From NCBI GenBank assembly GCA_002707025.1, contig PALG01000023.1, positions 1 through 64,000 of the forward strand: a stretch of DNA of 64,000 nucleotides, given 5' to 3'. The position numbers and the translations under genes are program-made. The notes beneath the pieces were generated by a model. It searched no databases. It saw only the letters and a program-made list of their open reading frames with translations, and was not told the DNA's origin. This DNA comes from Flavobacteriaceae bacterium (GTDB lineage: Bacteria > Bacteroidota > Bacteroidia > Flavobacteriales > Flavobacteriaceae). Below, in pieces: positions 53,260 through 54,047 of the stretch. Numbering within the stretch: position 1 is the first letter of the stretch; each line of letters opens with the position of its first letter.

Positions 53260-53334
53260 GGGCGCTTAGCTCAGTTGGTTCAGAGCACCTCGTTTACACC
53301 GAGGGGGTCGGGGGTTCGAATCCCTCAGCGCCCA
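53260..53334 (+). tRNA. tRNA-Val (anticodon TAC)
   Basis: 75-nt cloverleaf: acceptor stem GGGCGCT / AGCGCCC, D-arm GCTC...GAGC, anticodon stem CCTCG / CGAGG with loop TTTACAC (anticodon TAC), T-arm GGGGG-TTCGAAT-CCCTC. CCA is not encoded. It supplies the first copy of the 342-bp tandem repeat that follows. Confidence 0.97.
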
Positions 53335-53335
53335 C

Positions 53336-53366
53336 AAAGGCTTCCAGTTTTGGAGGCCTTTTTTTA
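53336..53366 (+). terminator. Terminator after tRNA-Val(TAC)
   Basis: AAAGGCTTCCA / TGGAGGCCTTT with a 4-nt loop and a T-run. It is repeated with the unit at 53678-53708. Confidence 0.92.
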
Positions 53367-53368
53367 TT

Positions 53369-53617
53369 ATGCACTTTTTTGTCTACATTCTTTTTTCCAA
53401 AGCCCTCAACAAATATTATATAGGGGCGACTTCTGATGTTTCGCGCCGTTTGGAGGAGCATCTTTGGTCGCACAAGGGTTTTACATCAAAAGCAAAGGAC
53501 TGGGTATTGGTCTATAAAGAGCGATTTGAGAAAAAGGAAGAGGCCTATGCCCGTGAACGGCAGATAAAAAAGTGGAAGAGCAGGGCGATGATCGAAAAAC
53601 TGGTTTCGGGGCAGTAG
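53369..53617 (+). CDS. Small GIY-YIG nuclease-domain protein, copy 1
   Basis: 82 residues, a minimal GIY-YIG domain: [20 protein letters not shown] (the VYI...YIG core), [10 protein letters not shown] with the catalytic Arg, [20 protein letters not shown] with the catalytic Glu. Ends VSGQ with the TAG merging into tRNA-like sequence. No RBS is evident and the ATG lies 3 nt past the upstream terminator, so it is poorly placed for expression from the tRNA promoter. It differs from copy 2 by two residues. Confidence 0.9.
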
Positions 53618-53676
53618 GTTCAGGGTATCCCGATTTTACATCGGGAGGGTCGGGGGTTCGAATCCCTCAGCGCCCA
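53617..53676 (+). pseudogene. tRNA-Val-like 3' fragment 1
   Basis: 60 nt starting in the D-loop-like GGTTCAG at the nuclease stop codon, with T-arm and 3' acceptor strand identical to tRNA-Val(TAC). The anticodon arm has changed to CCCGA / TCGGG with loop TTTTACA, still fully paired; read as an anticodon it would be TTA. The 5' acceptor strand is missing (no match to AGCGCCC upstream), so a normal tRNA cannot form. Confidence 0.88.
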
Positions 53677-53677
53677 C

Positions 53678-53708
53678 AAAGGCTTCCAGTTTTGGAGGCC
53701 TTTTTTTA
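53678..53708 (+). terminator. Terminator copy in repeat unit 2
   Basis: Same hairpin as 53336-53366, unchanged. Confidence 0.88.
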
Positions 53709-53710
53709 TT

Positions 53711-53959
53711 ATGCACTTTTTCGTCTATATTCTTTTTTCCAAAGCCCTCAACAAATATTATGTAGGGGCGACTTCTGATGTTTCACGCCGTTTGGAGGAG
53801 CATCTTTGGTCGCACAACGGATTTACGTCAAAAGCAAAGGACTGGGTGTTGGTCTATAAAGAGCGGTTTGAGAAAAAGGAAGAGGCCTATGCCCGTGAAC
53901 GGCAGATAAAAAAGTGGAAGAGCAGGGCGATGATCGAAAAGCTGGTTTCGGGGCAGTAG
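53711..53959 (+). CDS. Small GIY-YIG nuclease-domain protein, copy 2
   Basis: 82-residue near-copy of the upstream gene. It has YYVGATSD in place of YYIGATSD and SHNGF in place of SHKGF; the remaining base changes are silent (for example in the RRLEEH region). The conserved GIY-YIG core, Arg and Glu are kept in both, so selection or recent duplication has preserved the reading frame. Confidence 0.9.
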
Positions 53960-54018
53960 GTTCAGGGCATCCCGATTTTACATCGGGAGGGTCGGGGGTT
54001 CGAATCCCTCAGCGCCCA
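53959..54018 (+). pseudogene. tRNA-Val-like 3' fragment 2
   Basis: Same 60-nt fragment as 53617-53676, with one base different (GGCATCC in place of GGTATCC). Also lacks a 5' acceptor strand. It marks the right end of the repeat; the following hairpin copy (54020-54047) has an altered 3' arm (TTTTTTGGGCC). Confidence 0.87.
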
Positions 54019-54047
54019 CAAAGGCTTCCAGTTTTTTGGGCCTTTTT

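Follow-up and report, generated by a model that had tools for sequence, protein, structure and literature searches.

A small GIY-YIG nuclease gene and a palindrome-armed pseudo-tRNA form a candidate homing-like cassette beside tRNA genes of Bacteroidota

Organisation of the unit downstream of tRNA-Val

The window considered here is the whole stretch of 64,000 nucleotides that was analysed from a Flavobacteriaceae bacterium. In this stretch, an intact tRNA-Val(TAC) gene (53260..53335, plus strand; ARAGORN and Rfam RF00005, 70.6 bits) lies directly downstream of folC, the latter identified by homology and synteny, and serves as the host gene of a short array of repeated units on the same strand. 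In the first unit, a terminator-like hairpin with a T run (53339..53366), recognised in the sequence, stands immediately 5' of the ATG of a GIY-YIG nuclease ORF of 82 amino acids (53369..53617), which is supported by the reading frame, PF01541 and the predicted fold. The stop codon of this ORF is overlapped by the 5' end of a pseudo-tRNA tail detected by ARAGORN (53609..53677), consisting of a D-arm remnant, a palindrome, a T-arm and a 3' acceptor strand. The palindrome, TCCCGATTTTACATCGGGA (53628..53646), occupies the position of the anticodon arm. The second unit repeats this order with a terminator (53678..53710, repeat family D2), a nuclease ORF of 82 amino acids that is 98% identical to the first (53711..53959), a pseudo-tRNA tail (53951..54019, repeat families D1/D2 and sequence) and a second copy of TCCCGATTTTACATCGGGA (53970..53988), all on the plus strand. 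A third, partial copy, comprising the tRNA 3' part and a terminator (54020..54052, plus strand; repeat family D2, 92% identical), ends the array at about 54052 without a third ORF.

The start-to-start distance of the units is 342 bp, and the two units are 96% identical over 300 bp. Between the two ORFs, 10 of 246 nucleotides differ (dS 0.18, dN 0.010). The flank-repeat scores of the window copies are 147 and 202, in comparison to 29 or less in 100 shuffles, excluding a chance origin of the repeats. Each tail extends from the D-arm through the acceptor end, with the anticodon arm CCTCGTTTACACCGAGG swapped for TCCCGATTTTACATCGGGA; the 3' half of the first tail is 100% identical to the local tRNA-Val, and one of the window tails is called by ARAGORN as a tRNA with a stop anticodon. 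The layout of the unit is therefore best described as terminator, GIY-YIG ORF and pseudo-tRNA with a TCCCGA..TCGGGA palindrome as its anticodon arm, with a single ORF and no integrase gene. A first-pass annotation of this DNA had described an intact tRNA-Val(TAC) followed by exact 342-bp units, each with a tRNA 3' part, a terminator and an 82-residue GIY-YIG gene, a third truncated end and no integrase. Most of this description holds, including the 342-bp spacing, but the units are not exact copies, and the supposed tRNA 3' part, although it does include a tRNA-derived 3' half, is a D-arm-to-acceptor pseudo-tRNA with a palindrome as its anticodon arm.

Both ORFs match the GIY-YIG domain PF01541 (60.6 and 61.2 bits, E ~1e-16), above the curated cut-off of 22.6 bits, and the catalytic residues Y6, G19, R27, H31 and E63 are invariant across 59 homologues. 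The proteins thus belong to the GIY-YIG superfamily, with the nuclease core intact, as the first-pass annotation had stated. The AlphaFold2 model is a confident GIY-YIG fold (pLDDT 92.7), and the closest solved relative, by both sequence and fold, is the UPF0213 protein BH0048 (1zg2), which was deposited as a hypothetical protein and for which we know of no connection to tRNA genes or palindromes. In the fold search, the Slx1 structure-selective nucleases rank after BH0048, and I-TevI is a weaker match. This UPF0213/Slx1-like fold favours an enzyme that would act on branched or hairpin DNA. The Ssn GIY-YIG family of Neisseria, which cleaves single-stranded DNA at a palindromic repeat sequence, is a possible mechanistic parallel. 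Purifying selection acts on the ORFs at other loci (108 pairs with a median dN/dS of 0.135), and tandem copies at one locus are mostly near-identical in this comparison.

Linkage to tRNA genes and conservation of the palindrome

A scan of 84,980 species genomes recovered 483 relatives, and tRNA linkage was counted on the best 80 of these, every one of which comes from Bacteroidota. An intact tRNA gene lies on the same strand within 400 nt at 67 of these 80 loci, in comparison to an expectation of about 1% or less per locus. The linked tRNAs include 44 Val-TAC and 13 Arg-TCT located upstream, 6 Met-CAT and a few others. Among the remaining 13 loci, several begin at a contig end or sit within tandem arrays. 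Direct repeats flank 81 of the 87 copies that have both flanks, well above shuffles. The replaced anticodon arm recurs in other families and orders. Tails that copy the local tRNA (Val or Arg) and carry a CCCGA..TCGGG-type arm are found in Pseudozobellia, Salegentibacter and Altibacter, genera named after the matching named loci L092, L086 and L147, and in a member of another family.

Two other arrangements were seen. At an Altibacter contig edge (the start of L029/L147), tandem copies of the 5' half of tRNA-Arg, each with a CCCGCATTGGCGGG arm, precede the intact gene; arrays of this kind break short-read assemblies. At locus L036 (G033:C8), four tandem tRNA-Val(TAC) genes are spaced at 112 bp, and the nuclease is absent from that stretch.

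Mirror-form elements have also been found, in which a pseudo-tRNA 5' half and the palindrome precede the ORF and the intact tRNA lies downstream (L014 with tRNA-Pro, L011 with tRNA-Asp and L091 with tRNA-Met). These elements retain only the 5' half of the pseudo-tRNA. Their existence means that the tRNA 3' end, around which the first-pass annotation had built its account of the element, is not a general rule. The genome of the window itself encodes a second GIY-YIG ORF (L003; C20:52358-52588, minus strand), which extends into the gene for tRNA-Ser(TGA). Upstream of this ORF are a 5' fragment of tRNA-Ser and several palindromes of the form TCACGT..ACGTGA, and a Y1 transposase-like gene is located about 2.3 kb away (C20:49859).

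Of 100 homologous copies, 78 have the palindrome directly behind the ORF and 9 have it in front. The exact TCCCGA/TCGGGA core is shared by 41 of the 49 distinct palindromes; in others, the two sides change jointly (TTCCGA/TCGGAA, TCCCGC/GCGGGA and TCCCGT/ACGGGA). The next pair, pair 7, which lies outside the search pattern, is TA, CG, AT or GC and is paired in 47 of the 49. In combination, the compensatory changes and the covariation of pair 7 indicate that both the sequence and the pairing of the palindrome are kept. A second palindrome with the same core is found in the T-loop of many pseudo-tRNA tails. Within a diverged subfamily B, whose members share 46-60% identity and lie beside tRNA-Pro, tRNA-His and one other tRNA, the palindromes are TCACGC..GCGTGA, TCCCGC..GCGGGA or TCTCGC..GCGAGA. 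The type of palindrome thus differs between the protein subfamilies, as recognition by the protein would predict. This association, which is not proof, suggests that the protein may recognise the palindrome; conservation of the core could instead reflect an RNA role.

The palindrome is conserved across the phylum irrespective of the tRNA, while the 3' half of the tail copies the local tRNA. The T-arm and acceptor strand of the pseudo-tRNAs have a mean identity of 0.88 to their own tRNA, in comparison to 0.75 to the tRNAs of other species, and the own tRNA is the better match in 65 of 69 elements. The 3' end thus seems to be of local origin, by copying or homogenisation, and not brought in as the att site of an integrase would be. 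The tail at L149, which bears an acceptor end of the tRNA-Pro type, points to copying from a neighbouring tRNA. It is the palindrome in place of the anticodon arm, and not the tRNA 3' end, that travels with the nuclease. Because ARAGORN calls stop-type anticodons, the tails could be taken for functional suppressor tRNAs; this reading was rejected, given that the anticodon loops vary, the T-loops are often broken and the 5' acceptor strands are often missing.

Empty, occupied and decayed loci

The synteny of folC and tRNA-Val is kept in many genera, with the element present at dozens of these loci and absent at over a dozen. At the family level, 69 of 397 genomes contain the nuclease gene, in up to five tandem copies, and the element is absent from most relatives. 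In one genus, judged Chryseobacterium-like by matching named loci, all 148 genomes match the tRNA query and 43 of the 148 encode the nuclease, with 1-6 copies. Direct reading of the tRNA-Arg locus of this genus showed it empty in four cases (L211, L213, L218 and L221), with 1, 2 and at least 4 copies in others, and in three (L215, L222 and L223) reduced to an ORF-less remnant that keeps the palindrome. Comparison of empty and occupied loci in the genus places the limit of homology at the end of the terminator, just 5' of the ATG. Array ends fall within units, and nuclease copies with stops or truncations are frequent. Two hallmarks of homing are thereby present: occupied and empty alleles of the same site, at both folC-tRNA-Val and tRNA-Arg, and a cycle of gain, decay and loss, reflected in the stops, truncated copies and ORF-less remnants. 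The remnant at L222 consists of two tandem ORF-less units (terminator, short spacer and palindrome-armed pseudo-tRNA), which are perhaps non-autonomous derivatives amplified in trans.

A third hallmark, horizontal movement into the same site, was addressed by tree comparison at the 32 folC-tRNA-Val loci having both the nuclease and FolC. The FolC tree is rejected by the nuclease alignment (delta logL 156, p-AU 1.7e-5), as it is in AU tests enforcing only the FolC clades with support of at least 95 (p 5e-4) or at least 99 (p 0.007). Recent clades agree between the two trees, so both vertical descent and transfer appear to occur. These AU tests, based on a protein of 82 residues, support horizontal movement into the folC-tRNA-Val site, though part of the disagreement may stem from ancient duplication and loss. 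From these sequence comparisons, the element appears to move between cells or species.

The carriers of such movement were sought among phages and plasmids. No match to the element was found among named phages in 50,697 phage records, and viral contigs gave three matches only, on which grounds a phage-borne homing gene was rejected. Plasmid carriage was likewise rejected, as among the matches listed there are only distant ones of 38-45% identity, mostly alphaproteobacterial.

These results bear on the proposal of the first-pass annotation that a selfish cassette copies itself downstream of tRNA genes. It had called for a search for tRNA association, empty sites and copy-number change among relatives, and all of these have been found, the first at 67 of the best 80 loci and the others at folC-tRNA-Val and in the Chryseobacterium-like genus; neither a lack of tRNA association nor a fixed two-copy state in all relatives, named there as grounds for abandoning the idea, was seen. 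The cassette itself is supported by linkage, empty sites, purifying selection and tree conflict, but the tRNA 3' end is local and gives way to the palindrome as the travelling part.

Proposed mechanism, rival explanations and precedents

The best explanation, and a reasonably probable one, is a selfish homing-like nuclease cassette that is nested at the tRNA genes of Bacteroidota and amplifies through tRNA repeats, with the palindrome as the likely site of the nuclease. The element is probably mobile and selfish, and we infer its cleavage, target and movement. In a plausible nuclease-repair mechanism, the small UPF0213/Slx1-like nuclease would nick or cut the palindrome when it is extruded as a hairpin or cruciform, and might alternatively or additionally cut the arms of tRNA genes. 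Repair of the break via the flanking tRNA repeats would lead to tandem amplification of the unit, to homogenisation of the pseudo-tRNA with the local tRNA and to copying of the cassette into empty tRNA loci of cells acquiring it. The intact upstream tRNA would render the insertion harmless, and the terminator 5' of the ORF should hold the nuclease level low. Given that the tRNA halves match the local host, transfer would have to be followed by homogenisation or involve copying on a very local scale.

Ordinary recombination makes tandem arrays grow and shrink where they adjoin repeats, and the ends of the present arrays fall within units, as might follow from passive duplication of a tRNA together with an ordinary small neighbour gene that has no activity of its own. 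However, such duplication would not swap the anticodon arm for one conserved palindrome, and it is very improbable in view of the same ORF, relative position and palindrome at different tRNAs across the phylum, the interspersed empty sites, the conserved catalytic residues and the tree conflict. Very improbable, too, is a host-used or addiction-type RNA system, in which the nuclease would act on tRNA or other RNA and the pseudo-tRNA would be a decoy, an antitoxin RNA or a processing signal. The tails are tRNA-like enough to be called by ARAGORN with stop-type anticodons, their arm is kept paired and the protein is under purifying selection, all of which would suit such a system. Many tails, however, have a T-loop broken by the second palindrome and no full acceptor stem, mirror-form elements keep only a 5' half, the element is missing from most relatives and decays freely, and the nearest folds are DNA-acting Slx1-type enzymes.

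Palindromes of the TCCCGA type are also dispersed outside the element. The genome of the window has 21 of them, in comparison to 1 for a reversed-pattern control, and carriers of the subfamily have 8-32 outside the element, in comparison to a median of 2 in non-carriers (Mann-Whitney p 9e-5, uncorrected for phylogeny or G+C). Two peripheral RNase P RNA hairpins and one tmRNA hairpin of this genome are TCCCGA..TCGGGA palindromes (L074:1416-1734, equal to C20:259262-259580, and L066:1269-1670); in the rnpB of 17 relatives, the exact palindrome is absent and the two hairpins are variable, with a decayed form in L252. Furthermore, seven GIY-YIG relatives of about 100 aa (L021, L019, L026, L024, L004, L017 and L023) are flanked by other REP-like repeats, for example ATTCCTGCCTTCGCAGGAATGACA and TGCTGAATCAAGTTCAGCATGACA, which suggests that association with palindromes is a general trait of this group of GIY-YIG genes. 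All of this would fit a REP-like system in which a GIY-YIG protein, rather than a RAYT transposase, mobilises short palindromes, with the tRNA-nested arrays as home loci and the dispersed TCCCGA palindromes (intergenic repeats, T-loop inserts and hairpins in RNase P RNA and tmRNA) as products. The second palindrome in the T-loop of many pseudo-tRNAs is of the dispersed type, and genome G038 has 29 palindromes without a Y1 transposase, on which ground RAYT was rejected as a sufficient cause of the palindromes. On the other hand, genome G013 has 23 palindromes but no GIY-YIG match at threshold, the 66 palindromes of genome G048 are mostly of another loop type, the loop sequence differs between dispersed and pseudo-tRNA palindromes, and the genome of the window also holds one Y1 transposase. 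The data on dispersed palindromes are suggestive of a REP-like role, and the system as a whole is unlikely.

A wider reading is offered tentatively, as possible though doubtful. The element would be a separate class of minimal mobile element, whose stand-alone GIY-YIG nuclease of the Slx1/UPF0213-like type would bind its inverted repeat in hairpin form and land in the arms of structured-RNA genes (the tRNA anticodon arm, the T-loop, and RNase P and tmRNA hairpins). Palindrome and nuclease together would spread through Bacteroidota, the tRNA halves of the host providing the homology for repair, and such an element would be a GIY-YIG counterpart of REP/RAYT.

The nearest precedents are SegB, the fungal mORFs and REP/RAYT, none of which matches all features. 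SegB, a GIY-YIG homing endonuclease of the tRNA region of phages T4 and T6, is likewise a free-standing gene beside tRNA genes, and the tandem amplification of tRNA-Tyr together with segB, by recombination between repeats, depends on its nuclease activity (PMC13096335). It is phage-borne, and the account consulted describes no palindrome-armed pseudo-tRNA (PMC13096335), whereas the present gene is chromosomal in many Bacteroidota. In the GIY-YIG mORFs of fungal mitochondria (Allomyces atp6 and Glomus atp9), a free-standing endonuclease ORF has entered beside a gene whose 3' part is found in duplicate on the far side of the ORF (PMC3630166), as in the tRNA element. However, the 3' end of the mORF is foreign and forms a hybrid gene (PMC3630166), while the halves of the tRNA element match the local tRNA (65/69), and this element is hosted by a tRNA gene and has a palindrome in place of the anticodon arm.

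In REP/RAYT, as in the element, short palindromes flank a small gene of nuclease type, and the palindromes dispersed elsewhere in genomes with the element may correspond to REPs, although their loops differ. The REP/RAYT enzyme, however, is a Y1 (IS200-type) tyrosine transposase rather than a GIY-YIG protein, and the palindrome of the element lies within a tRNA framework. A Y1 transposase between the palindromes, which defines REP/RAYT, is not seen here, and G038 has both elements without a Y1 match. Integrative elements with att sites in tRNA genes similarly keep an intact tRNA and have, at their other end, a second copy of its 3' part. Unlike these, the present unit is only about 340 bp and has mirror-image forms, and an integrase-type element was rejected because the unit has no integrase. 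In open-licence papers on GIY-YIG proteins with tRNA genes in Flavobacteria, REP palindromes or Bacteroidetes, no description was found, and the 2006 paper on the GIY-YIG superfamily mentions no such tRNA association in the portion covered. The tRNA-nested nuclease element is real, widespread and, as far as the open-licence literature goes, undescribed.

Stand-alone GIY-YIG proteins of this small type occur widely, mostly without known function. The clear, recurring genomic signature, which combines an intact tRNA, a terminator, the nuclease and a pseudo-tRNA bearing the palindrome with empty sites in sister species, points to a likely life style for this group and supplies a candidate DNA site. 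If the interpretation is true, the element would be a chromosomal parallel to the amplification by phage SegB, would help to explain tRNA-like pseudogenes with stop-type anticodons in Bacteroidota and may be the source of some dispersed palindromes. With a unit of about 340 bp, the element would also rank, in our judgement, among the smallest autonomous mobile elements proposed.
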